Source: Proteromonas lacertae
Lineage: Eukaryota; Sar; Bigyra; Opalinata; Proteromonadidae
Direction: 5' to 3'
Assembly: GCA_002245135.1 (NCBI GenBank)
Contig: NGBS01000295.1
Span: 124,001-188,000 of the forward strand
Length of the DNA stretch: 64,000 nt
The notes under the pieces are model-generated. The model did not search any database. It was not told where the DNA came from and saw nothing but the letters and a program-made list of their open reading frames with translations. Made by a program: the position numbers and the translations under genes. This document shows positions 22,618 to 49,777 of this stretch, one piece after another (within the stretch, counting starts at the first letter, position 1; every line of letters begins with the position of its first letter).

Positions 22618-23325
22618 ATGAGTGATACAATAGCTCCAATATTTCAAGATATATCACAGAATATTATTAGGTATAATTATGATATTATGTACTATAGATT
22701 TTTAAATAATCATGAAGGTATTAAAAATGTACAATTTATTCAAAAGTTACCAATACCATTAATGAAAATTATTGATTGGGAGAATTTAAATGCTCCTTAC
22801 ACACTTCCAGAAGAATTGAAAGCTTTTTATTCAATTTCAAACGGATTCACTCTAAGGTGGCAAGTTTCATTTGGTCAAAAAGACTATAACTTAGGTAATA
22901 TGCATGTTGAATCATTAGAAGGATTAATACCAATTGAAATTGTCTCTCCATTCCCAAATTATGTTGGTGTATATGAAAATGAACATATAAGTCTAAAATC
23001 ACATCCAAAAGAAGTGAAGATATTTCAGTTAGATTCTTCATGTAATTGGGGTACTGTAGGATTAGTTTATATTGATACAACAACAGATCCACAAATATGG
23101 TTCCAAGACCTATCTCAAGAGTGGCATTATATAGCACCTAACTTTACAGATTATTTTAGGCTACTTGTAATACATTTGGGCATTCCTAGATGGCAATATG
23201 CATATACTCCTATTGGATTGGATCCTACCATCATACAGTGGTTTAGATTTATTAATCCAGAAAGACTTAATATTATTATGAATTATTGGAAATCAAAGAG
23301 AGATATTGATGATAATATGACGTAA
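22618..23325 (+). CDS. TPGS2: TPGS2-like tubulin polyglutamylase complex subunit (SMI1/KNR4 fold)
   Basis: The intron-free ORF encodes 235 residues with an SMI1/KNR4-type core: LPEELKAFYSISNGFTLRW (family LPEDLKNFYLMTDGF), an IFQLD...GTVGLVY strand pair, IWFQDLSQEWHYI, and the strongly diagnostic LLVIHLGIPRWQYAYTPIGLDP. The last matches the HLGLPQWQYAFT...GISP region of TPGS2. In animals this subunit belongs to the TTLL1 polyglutamylase complex that adds glutamates to tubulin in cilia and centrioles. Its presence suggests ciliated or centriolar microtubules in this organism. The start is the first ATG, 30 nt after the GGCTTG motif. The long disordered C-terminus of the human protein is missing. 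Confidence 0.8.
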   Translation: MSDTIAPIFQDISQNIIRYNYDIMYYRFLNNHEGIKNVQFIQKLPIPLMKIIDWENLNAPYTLPEELKAFYSISNGFTLRWQVSFGQKDYNLGNMHVESLEGLIPIEIVSPFPNYVGVYENEHISLKSHPKEVKIFQLDSSCNWGTVGLVYIDTTTDPQIWFQDLSQEWHYIAPNFTDYFRLLVIHLGIPRWQYAYTPIGLDPTIIQWFRFINPERLNIIMNYWKSKRDIDDNMT

Positions 23326-26071: not shown

Positions 26072-29000
26072 CTAAAAATTACTATTAACTGTACTACTTG
26101 TCTTAGTAGGCTCTAATTTAAAAGTCTCAATTGGATCTAAGTGTGGAGGAGTTCTAGCTTCACACATATTATTGGCTGTTGTTGTATTTTTTCTATATTT
26201 TGTATAACTGGAAGAAACAGTTCTAGCAGAATCGTGAGGAGAATTTGCTCTTGAATACTTCGATGTTTGACTTGTATTGAAAATGTTTAGATGAGAATCC
26301 ATTCTTGTTGGAGATGTATTATTAGGGTTAAATGGATTAATACGACGAGATGAATGGGGAGTTTTTGATGTTACTACATAATTCACATCATTCTTTGATG
26401 ATTTAATGTCTTTATAACTCAACACTTTCATTGGTGAACTAGATGGAGCAAATTGATAAGTTGGTGTTGGAGAAGTTACTTTGCTTGATGCTGTTGCTGA
26501 TAACATATGAGCAAATGCACTTCCTATAATTTGTGTATTCTGCATAACAATTGTATCATGCGTTTCACAGTCATTTCCTTTTTCAAAATGATCTTGTGTT
26601 GGCATTGTATCTGATGAAGATCCTTCTCCTGATCCATTATTCTCGTAGAAATCGTAGAATTTTGGCACATATATAATTAAGGATTCTATTAATACACCAC
26701 CCAATATCACTATTTAATTATAAAATAAAAATGCATATGTAATACTTAACATCCTGAACCATACAACACCTCCAATACTATCTTTAAATAACGCAAAATC
26801 AAATGGTATTGTAACTGCTCCAATAAATAGAATTGTTCCAATTGATAAAGATAACATTATTGATTGATTGAATTCCTTTTGTATATCTCTTGATTCCCAC
26901 GATATTATAATCCCATATAATAGCATTATTACTATTATACTAATATCAACAATTCTATTCAAAAATATAACAAATCACAATAATATACTCAAATACCACA
27001 TTCGATTCACATTGGTATAAGTTTTTGTGTAATGTTAAATCTGGTGTTGTTGTATCTGTTATAACCACTTTTGTTGGAGCTGATATTTCCCAAATTATGT
27101 TGAATATGATATGCAAACCAACAATAACTAAAATAATTTGTGATAAAAATCTATTTGTTATGGTTCTCTATTCATGATAATTTATATATATATATATATA
27201 TATACCTTTTTCAATGCAGGATTTCTGAATAATGCTTTCAACCTCCAACACTTTGTAATTAACACTGCATATAGCAACACTATGCCATTTCCTATTCCCC
27301 ATACTCTAAATCTACATACCCATGCATTCTTTGGTACTGCTGTTATTGCAAATGTTGAAGCAATAATAATCCACAATGCAATCATAGCTACTATTAAGAA
27401 ATTTAATGAGGATCTTCTAACTGTTGGCTTATTTCTATTCATTACTAAAACTACAGCTACAATAATCAACATCAATGTCTCTATAATAGCAATAATAAGT
27501 GTTGTGGCTTTAAGAGATACAGAATTCTCATATATTTCATAATATGGACCGAAATTACACTCACCTCCAAAATCATATGGTTCTAAAAATGATACGTTTG
27601 ATGATGTAGGGAAAATCAACTGAGATTCTCCTGAATCTGACATTCTGTAGAGATATGTTGATCTTGCCATATAATTGTTTGATCTTAATATAGCTCTTCC
27701 TGATGGCAACATTACTGTTTTATTTTGTATTGTCATTAGTATATGTCTAATAGTATATCTACCTTTTTCTAAATATCTGTCACTTTGATACTGCATGACT
27801 GATATTGCTAATAGCATTGCAGAATAAACCAATTCTATTCCTTCATTTAAATTCTTTTTACCTATCAATTTATCAACATCTGGTTGAAATCCCATTGTAT
27901 CTGTCGATGATATATCAGACATAAAAGAACTTACAAGATAAACATTATCCAATGAAGTAATAGTTTCTTTATCTGTTGCATATACATCGACATTATAATA
28001 AATCTGTCTGAATTTGTAGGTGTTATATCCTTTTTTCCTAAATAAAGGATAGAAAAATTTCAATTCGTATGAAGATAAAGTGTTTATTATAAGCAATTGC
28101 TTCTGTATATAGTTATCTAAATAATCAGTCATATTCTTTACTGAAAATGATATATTATACTCATCATACATCAATGTAAAAATTGGTATTTTAACCTTAT
28201 AATCATTATGAATTACATTCATTACTATTTCTTTCTCAGCAATACCATAACTTGATTTTGAATGGATTAGCACATAGTAATCAAAATCACTTTCTTTAAA
28301 ATAACTCAACAGTATTTTAGTCTTTTGATATGTTGTGCTTGATAATGTTATTAACTGTTCGTTACATCTATTATCATTACTTTCACCAGTATAAAACAAT
28401 AATTTCTTCCATTTATCTAAATACACTAATACAGCATCTCTACATTTAGTTGAACTACAACCGATAAAACAAAATAAACCTTCATCAGTTTCTATACTTC
28501 TTTGAATATCATAATTTTTAAGATCTTCTAACCTATATATTGGATTAACAATATAATATTCTGGTAAGGTATATCTATAGTTAAATCTTTGGAAATACAA
28601 CTCAGTATACAATGTCAATAACCTTGGAGAAGATTCAGTTCTATTATCTGAACTATATATCAAAGGCATAGTAACAAAACCTCTTGAACCACCATCTGTC
28701 ACATCACATACATTATTTTGTACATCTGAATTAAGTGAATTGCTATGATGATCTGGTATTGAAATATCAGGAGAAACCATATCAGCTATAAATGTAGCCA
28801 TCATGATCAACTCTCACCATATACAAGTATCTTTCTAAATACAAATCAATATCTATCTTTATATATCCTCCATGTGTATATAGTGATATTCCACTTTCTT
28901 CTTTGAAGAAAAAATACTGTGATATAGAATTGTCAGAATACTGATATGCATATGATAATAATTGGACTATTATATAAGCTGTATCAACAACTGCACTTAG

Positions 29001-32000
29001 TGATAGAAAATCACCAAATAAATTATCCACTATTTTTGATATTACTTCAGTTTTTGAAGTTAGATGACTATACATATTTGATTTTAATTCAGTAAATGAC
29101 GGTGTAATTGTATATATTGGACTTTTTCCATAGTATTGATTCAATTTTGTTGTTGTTTCATCTAAATAATTTGCATATATAGTAATGTTTTCATTATCCA
29201 AATAATGATTCACATCTAAATCTTTTAGTACACTTTCCACACAATTCAAAAATGCAAAATAAATAATACATTTAGTATTTGCACATAACGACAAAACAGT
29301 TCGAAAATATCTTAAAATTTGACTTTCCACATCTACAATTTTTGTGCATGTTGGCAATTGGATAATTCTTTCCACTTTGTATCCATAAGATACTAATGAT
29401 GTTATCATATAATTAGTTAACTCAATAGAAAATTCTGCTTCATTATTTATTATAAATACCAATCCTTCAAAAGCAGCTGTGTGTAGAATAAACATCTGTT
29501 TCAATTGGTTAAATGATGGTCCAACTGATATAACATTTTCACTACAAATAAAACCAGATGATAATGATAGAAAGTAGAATATTACATCTGTTCTATTCGT
29601 TTCAGAAACTAAAGAAATGAAAATATTCTTTTCTTCCAATCTCAAACCACCAACAAATATTTTTATTTCATTCTCTTGTAGTAGTCTTCTTATCGTGTCA
29701 GTATATATTTGATCATTTGAATCAGTATTATATAACATTAATTGAAAGAAAGGAAAAGAAGGATCATTATCTTCATAATGATGTAGTAATCCAGACATTA
29801 TTTCAAAGATCATTCTTCCTTTTGCACCTCTTTTACCAGTGAATGGAAGAACTAAAGCAATTGGTATTGTTGGAGAATGGAACAATACATCTCCATTTTC
29901 TTTATCAACTGACCAATCACAAAAAACATTGTCATATTCATAATTAACTCCAGGATAATATGGACTTGGAGATAAATTATGCATTGCATTAATAATCATG
30001 TGATATTTCCCATCTTTGTTATAATACAAGAATAAATCATGTGTCATATGATGATTTGTATTGAAATGAATTCCTTCTTCTGTTTCAATTCGATCATTTG
30101 GGTAAAAAACAGTTTTATATATGGCATTTCTTAAATCATCAAAATTATAATCTGTTAGTGTCAACAATGCTCTCATATAAATATTTACGGAATAATACAA
30201 ATATAGCATATCAGCATTTACGAAAATAGAATATGGAATTCTATTCTCTACTTTTTCTGAAAATATTTTAAAATTAACTGAAGATGAATTGTAGCTTCTT
30301 ACAAATGAAAATTCTTTAAAATGAGTTTTTGACATATCATTTGTATTATCAACTCTCATATCAAAATAATATAAGAGAAACTTCTTTTTAATCTTATCAA
30401 ATGCATCGTAATATTCTTCTAAATCGTCAAAATGTAAATCAACTAATATATTCACAACAGAATAGCTTTTATATTCTTCAGCATCATTTTCAGCATATTT
30501 TGTATAATTCTCGCCTCTATGACATGCTATAAGCTTGATATTAAAAAATCTCTTCTTTAACACTCTATAGAATGCTTGTACTTCAGGTCCATTTGTTTGA
30601 GTGTATAGTATATAATAAGAATCTTTCAGAGGATTATGATTAAGATTAAATGTCGATGTAAACATTCGATAAGCCATATGAGAATAAATACCAGCATAAA
30701 AAACATTATGATGACATGCTTCACCTGATGATGGTGAAACAAAAAATATTAATTTCTCTTTCTTTTCACATAATTCTAATATTTTAAATCTTTGATCATA
30801 TAATGAAACATAATCACCTGCAAAGAATACAGCAAATGTATTCTCAACATCCATTGCATCCTCTATCTCTTTTGAACTGTTTAATGCAAAGAAGTTAAAC
30901 TCTCTTGTTCCTATTTTATAAGTCGATTTTGGAAAGACTATTGAAATAAATAAATAATATATATATATATATATACATTCTTCATTTAGTTCATTAACTG
31001 TCATATCCAATATATCTATAATATTTGGTGTATTATTATAAATCAACAAAACATTAAGTAATATATATTCATGTTTTTCTACACTTTTCCCATCGAAATA
31101 ACACATATAACCAGGTTCATGATACATATTAAATATTTCAGGCATAATATATTCATTATAATTAGTTACAATTTCAAAATTATACTGAGATTTCATATAA
31201 GCCATTTGGAATATCCAAGTGGGAGAATTCTGTTTTGTATATTTCAATCCATCCATCACTTTAATATCGTCTTTCATTGTTCTATTATACAACTGTTTTG
31301 GAGTAGCTATTTTATTGGTTTCTTTATATATCATTTGTATTTGATATAAAAACAAAGTAATTGTACCATAGGCTATAATTTCTCTCAGCGAAAGTCTATC
31401 AATAGCTCCATATTGAGCTAACATTTTGTATAGTGAAAATGTCTTATCATCAGTCATAACAGAATGACCTAGAAAGTAAAACTTTGAGGCAGAAACTAAT
31501 ATTTTCTTTGCATCATCAAAAAATGGAGAAAAAATAGGATAAGTATCAAAATTCCAATTCTTTTCATCCAACATATTCAATATTTGAACAAATAAATCAT
31601 TTGGACATAAGAATATCAATACTCTACGTTTTTTATTTGAATTGAAATACTTCTCCAAATAAACATAATCCACTGAAGTTTTTAAACTAGATACATTATA
31701 TATATAATTACTTTCTAAGATTGAAACTAACACATTCTTATAAGATACATATGGTTCAAATGTATTATAAAAGATATGATAATCTATATAACCTTTATTT
31801 AAGAAAAAGTTTATGGGAGTAGAAAATAATTGATTTGGCAAACCTCCTCCTATAACAACATTATCAAAACAACTACTTCCAACAAAATGACCTTCATAAT
31901 ATAGACATCTTATCATGACCAATTAATTCTACTATTCTATTTAGTTCTAAAGTAGAATTTCCTGCGAATATATAATCACAATGATAGTTATATAATGCAG

Positions 32001-35000
32001 TATCAATACAATATTCATAATTAGATTTACAGTCATATCACATGATACAATATTCTGATATTAGAATTTGAATTCTCATTAAAATAATCAAACAGTGACA
32101 TTTCAGCAACTCCTACATAATAATCATGTGATGCTCCAACACTTGAAAATGAATGTAATAATAATACTTCTACAATTTCAACATCTAAATTCCATATAGC
32201 CTGTGTTTCATAAGAGATTGTCATTGTAAATGGTTGAATTGATTTATATAACAAATGTAATGACATGTCCTTAGAAAGAGAACCACAATAAAGAATATAT
32301 ATATTTTGTGTCATAAAGTTATTTCTATCTATTGACTGTAATCCTGTAGCTGTCTCAACCTTTAAGCTTTTTATAGTACTTACTATATCAGATTTAACAA
32401 ATGAATTGGCTTTCTTTAAACCTTCAACAAAGAATAACGCAGAATTATAAATATTAATTGAATATTGAAATAACTGATTATTTGTGGTATTAAAATACTG
32501 TTTCATATTATTCGACAGCATTTTAAAAACTGAAGTATTTAAATTCGAATGTGATACTGTAAAAAAGAATAGATTGCCAGTGAAATGAATTTCTTCATCT
32601 GTTTCAATAATATGCTCATCGTAATGTCCAAAATGTATAATATTCCAATTTCGATAATTTAATTTCTTCAGACTTCTTAAATAATTATATAAATATTCAT
32701 CATTTAACAGCGAAATTACTGTACCATTAAAATACACAAAATGATTTAACATTATTCGATTAACATTATCCAAATCACTATCTTTTTTTATTCTAAAAAT
32801 CTGATATACAATATATCCATATTCTTTAAGTTGATCCATAAACATTAAAGCTGTTTCTTTAACATATGGCTGATCACCAATCAATATATAAACAGGAGAA
32901 TAACAATTATGAATAATCCATCTACAACAGAACGGAATTAAAGCTTTCATATAAACATCAAATGTAAATTGATTATCCAAATCAACACTACTTTCATACA
33001 CTGTTCCAATATTCATCGCAATAACATCTTCAAATTGAGGTAATCTTGCTGAATTACATGTATAGCCGAATATGAAATGAAGTCCCTTTTCTTTTATTGA
33101 TCTTTTCTATCTTCTCCCATTCATTCTTGAGTTTCTTCTTCAGATATTGGGAATAGAATTGTATCAAGGTATGTATTATTCACCAATATTCCTCTATTAT
33201 ATTCTTGAATTGGTAATAAAAACATAGAAATTAGTAGTGATTGATAAGTACCAATCGTTTTTGAACAATAAATATATCCAATTTCATATATCCTTTCTTC
33301 TTTTTCTTTTATTTCTTCTTCTTCACCATCATCATCAATACCAGAACATCCAGTATAATATCCATGTGCAATTAAATTACTTGCATTATATGGACCTTTC
33401 AATTCAACTTTAGTTACTGTATTACCATCATTTTCTAATTTCAATAAATAATTTCTATAAGATAACAATCTCTGTCTCAACAAAATACTTTCACCATGAG
33501 GTAATTGAAAAGTATGCTTATCATCAAATAATGGTAATATACTGGAAGGTAGATATGAAAATACCTGTTTTGTAGTAAGATCTAATATCCTTATTGCTAC
33601 AAATAACAGTTCATGTCTTGCTAGATCAAAATCACCTTCTCCTAGCATTCCTTCTATCCACATCATAAAATTTCTATTTTCATAACTATTAGCTGCTTGA
33701 GAATAATGAGTTGTAGCATAAACATTTGGTAAAGATTTTATGTTTTTCAAAGTATTAACATCTGTTAAAAGGAATATATGTTTCTCTAACGCAGTCATTA
33801 CCTCTCTTCCAACATTAAACAGTTTTACCTCATCTGAATTCAATGAGATTAACACCAATCCTCCATTTGGCATATTTGTCAAAACATGATTTAATAATGC
33901 ATATGTATAAGTCTCCTCAGATAAAAGAACATTTCTCATATCTAAAAAACTCTTCACTGATACACCAATAAATTGTAAATTTCTCACACAATAGTCTTTA
34001 ATTGAAACACTAAATCGATTATCACTATTATAAACAACTATTAAATCATTCATATTTTGAGTATTCCAATAACTAATACTTGGATCTACTATCTGATATA
34101 TATTTGGACCAACTGTTACTCTAACAAAAATATAAAAATACATTTAAAAATACATATTTGAAAAACATTGTTTTTCATCATGGTTGAGTCTTATATTCCA
34201 CAACAACATATCATTTTTCATTAACTTGTTATTAAACTCTTTCTTTAAATCCAAATTGATAATCAAATGCAAATATATGAGTGACATTAGATTCTATCAT
34301 ATCATCAATGAGTGATTCTAAGTTGACATTTCCATCAAATACATATTCTGCGATAACTTCATTTTCACCTAAAATATCATAGCTCTTATAATATAACATT
34401 ACTGCTGTTTCATAGAACAACAGAAAGTTATGTGATGGATATGGTTCTGTATATTTCTGAACTGCAATCTTATGTTTTCTTACAGCTGCTAGTATATTTT
34501 CTTCAGTACAATCACATCTGACTTCAGCAAATGGAATTTTTACTTGTGGAAATGGTAATGGCTCAGAAATAACATTAACTACTTCTCTTCCATTATATTT
34601 ACTAATGAACCAATTCTTTGAGATGAAATTATTCTTTCCTATATATGAAATGCCATCAATGAATGATCGAAATGTTGTTGAATACAAAACACTATACATT
34701 TGTTCATTATCTAAAGTAGAAAGTTGAGACAGAGTAACTCTCTTAAATACAATAGAGTTAAAGAAATTTGTCAATGTTGATACTTCTGAATAAGTTAGAC
34801 GATTATAATATATTCCCATTTCTCTTATAAAAGTGGTAAAATCAGATACTGGTTTAACATTATCAAAATATGGATATGTTCCCATAAACACTGCATTTTT
34901 ATACAACAATGGATCTAATGACATATTATCAAAACGATAGTCATTCAATGTTGTTACAGAATAACCATTCAAATTCTTTGATCTAATCAATTTTAATATA

Positions 35001-38000
35001 CTTCTAAATTCATCAGCATTGAAAAATGTATAAATCAAACCTCCATTTGGCATTTTTTCATGAATATAATCAACTACATCTTCAAGTGTATGACTATTAC
35101 AACATTCAATTTCTCTATCTTCAATATGTTCTTCTTTAAAACTTCTTTTTAATTCCTTTACATTCTCAGCAGCACTATTCCAAAAATCATTTCCTTCTTG
35201 AAGTATAATAAACACATCTCCAAATATTAACATATTCTTCATATAAGCTATTGGTCCATATGTTGATTTATAATTACCAAAATAAAAGACTAAATTCGAA
35301 CATACAGCAGTATGTGTATCAAAACCAACATAAATTGGAATATTGTAATAATCTGCTATTGGAATTAAAAGATTCAATTGATCAACACTATAATAACAAA
35401 TACATAAACATATAAATAATATAAATAAATACTCTTCTGATGAATATATTGTTATTACATGATGCTTAACTATAAAATCTTCAACATCATCAACTAATTC
35501 ATCATGTTTATTAGTATAATCCTTACCTAAAACATATGGTATAAACAGGCATTCATTAACTCCGTGATATATTGATATGTAGTTTATCATTGCTGTTAGA
35601 TATTCCAGTGTATCTTTATACTTAATTTCATCCAATACAATTAAATTGAAACATATACTCATCACAACCATTTCTGTTGATTCTATTTAAACATATAAAT
35701 AAATGAAATAATGTAAATACCTATATCATCAACAAAAGTAAACTGATATCCAGCTTCAAAGAATGCATAAAATGGTGGATTCATTACTACATATTTACCA
35801 CCATAAACTACACTATCATCATCATTTGCAGCTAACTGTAATATATTTATATTTGACATTAGATAATTATCACTATTGTACATTATAGTTCCTGCTATTC
35901 CTTCAATAGTTTTATGTTTTAATAACACAGATAAAGCTGTAATGTTACTTACACCAATTGATTGAATTACATTACCAATTAATTTTGTAATATAATAAGG
36001 AAATACAAATACATTATTGACTGTAATTGAATTATAGTATCTATCATTCTGTTTATCTTCAAAATCAAAATCTGTATATTTTGTTGCTTTACTAAAGTAA
36101 TAACCAAATATAAAAAGTCCATCATACATCTGAGGGGTTAAATATTCCTTTACAATCATTTCATCCAACGTTGTACTAAAAACTACAAACTTATGTTGTT
36201 GATTAATTGGATATAAACATTTCAAAAACCGAATTGAATTTTGTCTTGTCATAACCAATAAGATATTACCACCTTGTTGTGAGTATTCACTTAATAAACC
36301 CTGTACAGTTTCTTCAGTTATAGAGTCAAGGTAGTAGTAACCTTTAAATGGAAAATCATAATTCTTTCTATATATTAAAGTATTCAATATTGACTCATTG
36401 GCATAAAGCGAACCATCATATATAATAAAAGGATTATATAACAGTCTCTGATATTGTAAACTATCCAAAATAGCGAATATTGTATATCCAGCATTAAAAA
36501 GATATGAATAACTAGATGCACCTTCTTGTGGTGCAATATGAATAGACAATACTTTCTTATTCTTCAACTCCTTAATCAATATATTTTTGTAATCACTATT
36601 ATCATTAAAAAATATCATATCACAATGATATAGATTGACCAATTTCTCCAAACATTCTTTAAATTCAATTTCATTAGTATATGTCAATGAATAATAGAAT
36701 AATCTCAATTTCCTACCCTTGTCGTAGAGATTAACATTTGTTCTAAATATAGAATATTGAATTGCTTCTCTTGTCACAATTGTCATTTTTCCTGTATAAC
36801 AGTTAATATTGAATATCAAACCAACTTTTATTACATTCGCTACATTTATAGTCTTTTGACTTGTATAAGAAACATCATACAACTGTGTAGCTAAATGATA
36901 ATCAGTTGGTTGAAGTGTAGGATCAATTGTTTGAAACTTATCAAATATTGTTTCATTGGTTACTTTATTGAGAGTAGTAATAGCCAATGATTTGTATATA
37001 TATTGTGAATCTAATAACTTATATCTACCATACTTTGTTGATTCAGTTAATGTTGTGATTATATCCTTCAATATTGATAATTTATATACGTACAATGTTT
37101 TATATTGTTCATATACACTGTCTAGTATGTAATGCATATAATATCTATTCAATATAATATAATATATAAATATATAAATACACTGACATTGAAACATCAT
37201 CTATTATTTGATCTGGTAATTGATTTTTAATTTCATTCACCATTAGATCACTGTTAATCATTGTAGAGACACAATAAATGTGATTACTATCAGGATTATT
37301 TAGATAATATAAATCTCTAGTGTCGCAATTACCCATATTATATAAATTCCAGTTGTTCAAGTTTCCTTTCATCTATAATATCGTTTAGTAACTGAATATT
37401 TCTTTCTGTAAATGGTAATAAATTGATTATCAAATTGGGAGTTCTAAATACTGATGAAAATGATGAAATAGGTGTATTTTGTATTATTTGCTGATATTCA
37501 GATGTTAATAATTTACTTGAATTATATACTTCATATTCTACATTATATTGCGTTAATTGTGGTTCAATGAAAAGCTTATATATATTTACAGTGCTATCAT
37601 CGATCCATATGTGTATTTTTTTGTATACTAAGCATAATGGTGCAATACCTATTAAAATATATCATAGAATAGCAAATACTAGTCATGTAGACTGAATTAG
37701 GTTGTGACATGAAATACAAACTAGATGAAAAAGATAATGTCCTTCTAGAAAATGCAAAAAAATGTATATTGAGTGATTTGATCATAGAAACTACTTCATT
37801 TTGAACAACTTCATAGGCAAAGATTATAGCAACATTGACATGCACATTACCTGTTAAATACTTTTCCAAAGCAGTTGTATTATCTTTTCCATCATACACA
37901 AAGGGAGTAAGAATACTATAGTTTAAATTATTAGGATGACCTAAATCCATAAATACATCATGCACTATTCCACGTCTTATATACATATATTTATCAAAAT

Positions 38001-38094
38001 CACCATTGTCGGATAATATGTCTATCTCACCAACATTTATAATATCTCCCAAACAATAAATAATAATGAAAATATATATTACAAATATCCTCAT
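26072..38094 (-). CDS. Giant class C GPCR with about nine tandem periplasmic-binding-like modules
   Basis: The start MRIFVIYIFIIIYCLG is a signal peptide. From about 38,050 to 27,560 the protein is a chain of bilobed-looking modules of about 370-400 residues. Several carry the amide/urea-binding (UrtA/AmiC-like) pattern, e.g. FIFGYTCNSARLP, CLYYEGHFVG, NVVIGGGLPNQ, NVFYAGIYSHMAYR and IALVLPFTGKRG. The seven-helix domain runs from about 27,520 (SLKATTLIIAIIETLMLIIVAVV) through CRFRVWGIGNG and KCWRLKALF (GABA-B-like) to YVPKFYDFY at about 26,645. No Cys-rich linker is seen. The cytosolic tail is Ser/Thr-rich. Class C receptors sense small molecules and couple to G proteins. Introns are few and short. 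The frame needs one base skipped at about 37350, 34235, 33118, 33090, 32035, 31905 and 28790. A pseudogene is unlikely because no nonsense change needs to be assumed besides these. Confidence 0.7.
27560..38000 (-). repeat. Nine diverged ligand-binding modules in tandem
   Basis: Approximate module limits (minus strand, N to C): 38050-36860, 36860-35735, 35690-34510, 34505-33340, 33340-32185, 32185-31085, 31085-29925, 29925-28710 and 28710-27560. Spacing is about 1.1-1.2 kb each. The modules share fold-level landmarks: a hydrophobic opening strand, an NWN or similar turn, a Gly-rich NV..G.....Q segment and a closing strand before the next linker. Sequence identity is low, so the duplications are old. 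Limits are good to about 60 nt. Confidence 0.55.
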
Positions 38095-48652: not shown

Positions 48653-49777
48653 TTAAAACGGCCTTTTTACTATCATAACAGCTCTCTTTTGACTCATTGG
48701 AGGAGTTACCATCTGTCTACTCGATATAGCTGGAGAAGCACCCTGTCTTTGGCTAATCGAAGGTAAAGTCAGATTTGGTAATTTATTGTTATTGCTTCTT
48801 AATCCTAATATTTGAAGAATTAAACTAGTTAATCCATCACTCCCAGCTTTTATATTATATAAAAATATATTACCATTCTCAAGTATAAACTTAATTCTAG
48901 TATCTTCTAAATCAGGAATGCTATTGGTAGCTTGTTTGATCCTCCAAGCAGATGCTATTGTATCAGCTGTTCTTGCACTTCCTTCTATTATAATTAAAGG
49001 CATTTTAGCTTTTACTGCATTAACTGCTTCATTTACAGTTATTGAACCACCATTCACTAATATACCACACGATTTTACTGTTTGCATTAAATATTTTATT
49101 ACTCCAAACATTGTACTTGTTTCTCCACCCCATTCACTGGATTTTACTAATACAAAATGACTATGATGAGGTTCTAAATCAGTTAATTCATCAAAATTTA
49201 CTCCATTTTCATTATCATATATTTTACCAGGATATTTCACTAAATTCTGAGGACAAATTCCAATCAGTTTCATCTTTCTCATTAATTTACCTTTTCCTCT
49301 ACCAACTATCTGCATTATTCCACTGTCTGTACCCCCATCGATCATTACAGCACCACTTTCTTTACTTGCATTCATCACGCCTTGATCTATTAAACTACGC
49401 AATATTGGCATTAAAGTAGGATTTAAACCACTTGCACCACCAAAGGTACAGATTAAATAATTGATATGGCTGACTTTTATTTGGAAAGAATTTAATATTT
49501 TTTCACCTATTAAAAGATCTTCATCATCTTTCAATGGTGGTTCAGTCCATATTGCAATTGATTTTTCTCTATTATTATTAGGAAATACTATTGAAAATGG
49601 TTCATATTCTTCATTGATTCGTGGAGATTGGAAATTGACTGATCTTTTACCAATATTTCCTATATCACTGGTTGAAGATGGACTAGAAGGCCTTGCTGAA
49701 GATACAAATCCATCACTTGTAGCTACACTCAACATATACTCACTTTTCATTCTAGATATACCTGGTTCTAATAACAT
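48653..49777 (-). CDS. SLOG (TRPM-like LSDAT) domain protein or C-terminal part of the NACHT protein
   Basis: The 374-residue ORF has the SLOG/LSDAT pattern of TRPM N-termini: ICTFGGASGLNP, LIDQGVMNASKESGAVMIDGGTDSGIMQIVGRG (Rossmann-like core with GGTDSG), LIGICPQNLV, ...LEPHHSHFVLV, GILVNGGSITVNEAVNAVKAKMPLIIIEGSARTAD. SLOG domains bind nucleotide-derived ligands. No ion-channel helices follow, so it is not a TRPM channel. The ATG lies 7 nt behind the TAA of the NACHT/WD40 gene on the same strand. Skipping one base at the AAATAAA there would join both into one chain (RFK then KNSMLLEPG). Either a fused protein or an unusually close pair is encoded. Confidence 0.7.
   Translation of the reverse strand: MLLEPGISRMKSEYMLSVATSDGFVSSARPSSPSSTSDIGNIGKRSVNFQSPRINEEYEPFSIVFPNNNREKSIAIWTEPPLKDDEDLLIGEKILNSFQIKVSHINYLICTFGGASGLNPTLMPILRSLIDQGVMNASKESGAVMIDGGTDSGIMQIVGRGKGKLMRKMKLIGICPQNLVKYPGKIYDNENGVNFDELTDLEPHHSHFVLVKSSEWGGETSTMFGVIKYLMQTVKSCGILVNGGSITVNEAVNAVKAKMPLIIIEGSARTADTIASAWRIKQATNSIPDLEDTRIKFILENGNIFLYNIKAGSDGLTSLILQILGLRSNNNKLPNLTLPSISQRQGASPAISSRQMVTPPMSQKRAVMIVKRPF

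Follow-up and report, generated by a model that had tools for sequence, protein, structure and literature searches.

Described class C receptors and the gene in the window

In known class C G protein-coupled receptors (GPCRs), closure of a Venus flytrap (VFT) module reorients the seven-transmembrane (7TM) partners and activates the G protein. In the members of this class described in the texts consulted, each subunit has a single ligand-binding region. A different arrangement was found in Proteromonas lacertae, in the 64,000-nucleotide stretch analysed here (contig C1111:124,001-188,000, hereafter the window; GC content 24-32% in 2-kb steps), which is part of the 50.2 Mb genome of 1,181 contigs that was searched for relatives. 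A receptor gene on the minus strand (38,094-26,075; positions are those of the window) predicts, after a signal-like peptide, eight type I periplasmic-binding (VFT) modules in tandem, a class C 7TM domain and a cytosolic tail, and its paralogues have 6-9 module matches each. From its sequence, this gene is a member of a large family of predicted tandem-flytrap class C receptors.

The GABA-B receptor (GB1/GB2) also joins a flytrap to a 7TM domain, is nearest among solved structures to the 7TM of the three paralogues tested, and resembles two relatives, the same-genome locus C158 and protein P0004, in that Pfam reported no cysteine-rich domain in these. However, it has one flytrap per subunit, against 6-9 per chain here, and the 7TM exon of the window gene is nearer to mGlu5. 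UrtA and AmiC belong to the same two-lobe family as the modules and gave the best matches in NCBIfam and the Protein Data Bank (PDB), but they are single soluble bacterial modules, whereas the present modules are in tandem and lack most of the urea-contact residues. The flytraps of EvgS are of type II. EvgS-type histidine kinases carry two flytraps on one sensor chain (PMC5573083), but they are bacterial and have a kinase output, in place of the GPCR chain seen here. The Dictyostelium Grl receptors (family 3) are likewise protist class C receptors with N-termini like periplasmic-binding proteins; in the text of that paper, these N-termini are ANF-like, BMP-like or without a recognised domain, and Peripla_BP_6 is among the abbreviations (PMC10445921). 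Anaerobic gut fungi have a large set of class C GPCRs with solute-binding-protein (SBP) ectodomains of up to ∼1,600 amino acids (aa), but in the text available the folds are type II SBP or pectin lyase, the ANF domain is reported absent and no tandem type I array is described (PMC5168858). The N-termini of fungal and other eukaryotic class C members are given as 57-1,667 residues (PMC3251606). Searches of one open-access full-text library aimed at this kind of receptor or ectodomain, and passages on the receptors of protists, fungi, ciliates and relatives of choanoflagellates (figures, subscription journals and preprints being outside this scope), revealed no receptor in which type I flytraps form a tandem array. 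An earlier sequence-only reading of the window knew of no described receptor with this plan.

Tandem modules and the seven-helix domain

Pfam recognised Peripla_BP_5 or Peripla_BP_6 in three of the eight raw stop-free pieces of the gene, one of them (32,036-33,106) under Pfam's own cut-off and one also holding 7tm_3, and found no relevant match in the four N-terminal pieces. A module profile built from same-genome paralogues only, with E values computed as for 50 sequences, detected seven significant modules in the raw window frames (E 5e-44 to 4e-13), every one of them a minus-strand match within 36,828-27,575, and one further weak stretch (E 0.17). Shuffling all 826 frames of the window 20 times gave no match at E≤1. 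A wider profile, which left the window out and included the relatives C1146 and P0001-P0007 (E for one sequence), returned eight modules on the read-through translation, with E values from 2.5e-53 to 2.8e-30.

Each module is ∼350-360 residues long. The membrane-proximal module (27,575-28,663) gave the strongest matches, with E values of 5.1e-44 for the paralogue-only and 2.5e-53 for the wider profile, and a Peripla_BP_5 match (1.5e-9). Numbering outward from the membrane, and giving the two profiles in the same order, it is followed by the second module (28,763-29,861; 8.8e-28 and 6.9e-39), which has a frame break close to its end, and the third (29,958-31,049; 1.3e-21 and 2.8e-30), which contains an in-frame intron and matches Peripla_BP_5 in its frame (2.1e-9). 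The fourth (31,131-32,167; 3.9e-13 and 2e-51) and fifth (32,216-33,282; 3.3e-19 and 1.9e-46) have broken frames. The fourth carries the YYEG and GLPNQ motifs, near 31.9 kb in the sixth segment counted from the N-terminus, and the fifth matches Peripla_BP_6 at 1.4e-5, under the Pfam cut-off. The sixth (33,379-34,456), also broken, was missed in the raw frames by the paralogue-only profile, is detected in the read-through by the wider one (1.5e-33) and is present in the homologue P0001. The seventh (34,550-35,653; 2.7e-16 and 3.3e-33) contains an in-frame intron, and the eighth (35,770-36,825) was found at 2e-26 and 1.1e-30.

Beyond the eighth lies an N-terminal segment of ∼360 residues (36,913-38,022), crossed by two frame breaks, that matches the wider profile over its full length only at E=1. 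An hhalign comparison gave 3.1%, against 0.1-0.5% for five shuffles and 98.7% for module 2 as control. Eight modules are therefore claimed and the ninth is doubtful. The first hydrophobic stretch (38,047-38,094; read-through residues 3-21) is a putative signal-like peptide on hydropathy grounds.

The 7tm_3 domain (26,723-27,517) is split by short introns and was recognised by Pfam on its first exon (4e-13) and, above the cut-off, in the genome search (6.1e-16, 63 bits). The last exon (26,075-26,713) is a stop-free frame predicted to encode the last helix and a serine/threonine-rich cytosolic tail, and shares 52% identity with the end of a paralogue. Counted by eye, eight short GT-AG introns of 28-45 bases lie between the pieces of the gene. 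Hydropathy of the read-through shows an N-terminal peak and six others. The modules of C158 are free of peaks and seven lie in its C-terminal part, C283 and P0008 have seven and one inside a module, and C713 has five and four inside modules. The predicted product can safely be assigned to class C, and eight modules, presumably extracellular, precede the 7TM, as flytraps do in class C GPCRs. Pfam did not report the cysteine-rich NCD3G domain, a feature of mGlu, CaSR and T1R, in either C158 or P0004 (E≤1e-3) or in the window pieces (E≤1). In PDB searches with the 7TM of the paralogues C713, C158 and C283 the best match was GABA-B (8e-14, 5e-9 and 1e-12, respectively), with mGlu behind, although with the complete C158 chain as query mGlu7 was the sole match listed over the 7TM at E≤1e-5.

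Much of what the sequence-only reading had proposed thus stands: a class C 7TM, tandem binding-protein modules before it, and a module spacing of 1.1-1.2 kb. Its "about nine" modules reduce to eight firm ones, the N-terminal segment giving no significant VFT signal, and its chain of ∼3,700 residues is somewhat exceeded by a read-through of 3,915 letters, which includes an X at the joints. The UrtA/AmiC likeness it saw holds for UrtA, which came first when a profile of seven window modules was searched against the PDB (6.6e-8), and is weak for AmiC (E 0.22). The NCBIfam UrtA model matched five stretches in each of C158 (433 bits) and P0004 (388 bits), below its curated cut-off of 492.75; in the window gene it matched the last module (E 0.0011, 17.9 bits) and gave no match in the 1,046-aa frame.

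Elsewhere in the genome, C992:123,771-124,619 and C244:37,744-38,714 have canonical ANF_receptor matches (6.4e-38 and 8.6e-18, compared with 2.3e-8 at best for the tandem-module genes) and are possibly ordinary single-flytrap proteins. The best PDB entries for actin are those of Dictyostelium, and ribosomal L3 matches plants and Tetrahymena, which does not decide the identity of the organism.

The receptor family and the age of the array

The genome contains 132 7tm_3 matches; the open frame that holds the match reaches 1,500 aa or more in 44 of them, 2,000 aa or more in 36 and 3,000 aa or more in 7. These figures refer to matches, not to genes, and include near-identical copies; module counts were made only at named loci. 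Thirteen paralogue loci were taken, selected mostly for long frames, and C1146 was added later as the closest relative. In 12 of the 13, a single stop-free frame of 2,590-3,672 aa includes 6-9 module matches together with the 7TM, the outermost match often being partial; the longest, 3,672 aa, has nine. Pfam alone reported five Peripla_BP_5 stretches (1.6e-153) and 7tm_3 (6e-29) in a 2,599-aa frame. The thirteenth locus, C1001, has a frame that is cut at the start of the locus and includes seven matches, and the next frame encodes the rest of the last module and the 7TM. C1146 is spread over several frames by apparent introns, as is the window gene.

The same order occurs outside this genome. 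P0004-P0007, from other public assemblies, each have six module matches and 7tm_3, and P0008, also from another public assembly, is a 3,503-aa protein with nine module matches and 7tm_3 on a 12.6-kb contig. The source of P0004-P0008, coded 'lgn', presumably consists of assemblies of public reads. The window gene itself has relatives in P0001-P0003, with 49-79% identity over ∼30% of the query. One-frame relatives within and outside the genome weigh heavily against both separate genes and the misassembly of a single genome, and a single predicted chain, as the sequence-only reading had it, is favoured over separate transcripts.

Equal-scoring 7tm_3 matches were noted in inverted orientation ∼3 kb apart on C1171 (149,811-150,560, plus strand, and 153,784-154,533, minus strand) and on the separate contigs C18, C475, C957 and C287, which suggests recent duplication or haplotype contigs.

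When modules of 15 proteins were numbered from the membrane, those at the same position shared 20.5% identity (617 pairs), against 14.0% for those at different positions (3,766 pairs). With one gene per subgroup, the observed value was reached in none of 2,000 label shuffles in each of three separate triples, in which the best match fell on the corresponding position in 20 of 36, 17 of 32 and 16 of 32 cases. For the window gene, same-position best matches numbered 10 of 12 with C158 and 6 of 14 with C624, values equalled or exceeded in 5 and 11 of 2,000 shuffles, respectively. This position-specific likeness across distant paralogues is the reason why the array, judged by module identities, seems to be older than most of the expansion of the family. 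In some paralogues, the window gene included, modules may have been gained, lost or shifted, or divergence may be too great to tell. Modules are only 10-19% identical to the last one, and on this basis the array is not recent. A tandem-repeat search found no repeats, its longest searchable period being 500 bases, which makes it blind to 1.1-kb units.

Proposed working, alternatives and neighbouring genes

As a whole, the locus is probably best explained by a class C receptor family with chained flytraps in which the proximal module drives the 7TM and the outer modules sense or space, the window copy being broken or misassembled. If it works like the known class C receptors, the membrane-proximal module would close on a small ligand and reorient the 7TM partners, leading to activation of a G protein; Gα genes or proteins were matched in the same genome. 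The outer modules might recognise additional ligands, such as small amides, amino acids or comparable cues from nutrients or prey, and pass the ligand-induced change along the chain, or alternatively might set reach and clustering. Such working would draw on predicted features that sequence comparison demonstrates, namely chained modules of old, position-specific character and a 7TM in a fixed order on one chain in relatives. Against the single ligand-binding region of the class C subunits described in accessible texts, up to nine flytraps in series raise the question of how the closing of a module far out is relayed to the membrane. The family also raises the questions of whether a single receptor can integrate many ligands and by what route nutrient-binding proteins of bacteria entered eukaryotic signalling, and the intact paralogue sequences make these testable.

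Several observations weigh against this explanation. Eight conserved urea-contacting residues are named for the solved UrtA (PMC10392092). Five of these contacts (Trp120, Ser122, Tyr141, Gln144 and Glu146) were scored in 97 modules from 15 proteins; all five are present in none, four in one, and none in 40. Because these residues are mostly lost, urea is not a likely ligand of most modules, though the fold family is right, and it was rejected as such. AlphaFold models of three modules of P0003 and of the last module with the first helices were poor (predicted local distance difference test scores of 46 and 37), pockets and packing could not be read from them, and Foldseek matches of the last-module model to class C receptors were not used as evidence because of its weakness. 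Same-position best matches of the window gene numbered only 4 of 14 with C713 and 4 of 16 with C283, values reached by 69 and 553 of 2,000 shuffles, respectively. For the first 7TM exon of the window gene (111 aa) the best match is mGlu5 (4.7e-6), and GABA-B follows only at 0.005. As the paralogue 7TMs favour GABA-B and this exon favours mGlu5, the label "GABA-B-like", borne out in all three paralogues tested, is not settled for the window gene. Finally, the frame of the window copy is broken at eight places where no intron lies (28,783-37,618, seen as read-through joints), which the sequence-only reading had missed.

The closest paralogue, C1146, which has the exon plan of the window gene with one extra intron and 45-67% identity, is unbroken at all six comparable break places, and P0001, judged by eye, reads through all five that it spans. 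The window copy is therefore either a pseudogene or an assembly-damaged gene. The frames of other paralogues, which run unbroken for as much as 3,672 aa, lean to decay, but all eight breaks shift the frame in one direction, none is a same-frame stop, and similar-looking joints were seen by eye in two neighbouring window loci, near 11.5 kb and 49.8 kb, which leans to a technical cause. A decaying pseudogene is accordingly a serious candidate, though somewhat the less probable of the two. No shared site pointing to programmed frameshifting was seen at the breaks, in a comparison made without a formal test.

Two further readings concern the role of the chained modules. The chain may be mainly a structural rod, in which most flytraps do not bind and instead hold an active proximal module off the membrane or mediate adhesion or clustering. 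The profile match tends to be weaker in outer than in inner modules, the N-terminal segment is barely recognisable, and the loss of urea contacts fits as well. However, long two-lobe matches are retained throughout the array, and each position preserves a character of its own even between distant paralogues, beyond the apparent needs of a spacer, so that a rod of this kind is put forward only tentatively. A multiplex chemosensor, with 6-9 functional modules per GPCR chain, a separate small molecule recognised at each position, one 7TM integrating the cues and the family expanded to dozens of genes, is held to be possible with equal reserve.

That separate genes or transcripts, encoding soluble binding proteins beside a receptor, were misread as one is very improbable. 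Introns and breaks do divide the window gene among many frames, and C1001 and C1146 are also split, by apparent introns, but the single open frames at 12 of 13 long-frame loci and in five proteins of other assemblies largely refute it. Bacterial contamination or a misassembly that placed urea-binding genes beside a receptor would agree with the resemblance to bacterial UrtA, but is hardly credible given short GT-AG introns within module frames, dozens of loci, the presence of the 7TM in the same frames and similar proteins on contigs of other assemblies.

The window contains no Rfam family, and there was no match in phage records. Among its neighbours, a SLOG/LSDAT domain (48,656-49,777, minus strand), for which the best match is a prokaryote-type model (2.9e-44), adjoins a 1,463-aa WD40 frame and is near a kinase frame, and the three are possibly one fused gene. 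A SMI1/KNR4 (SUKH-1) protein (2.7e-7) is encoded at 22,618-23,322 on the plus strand.

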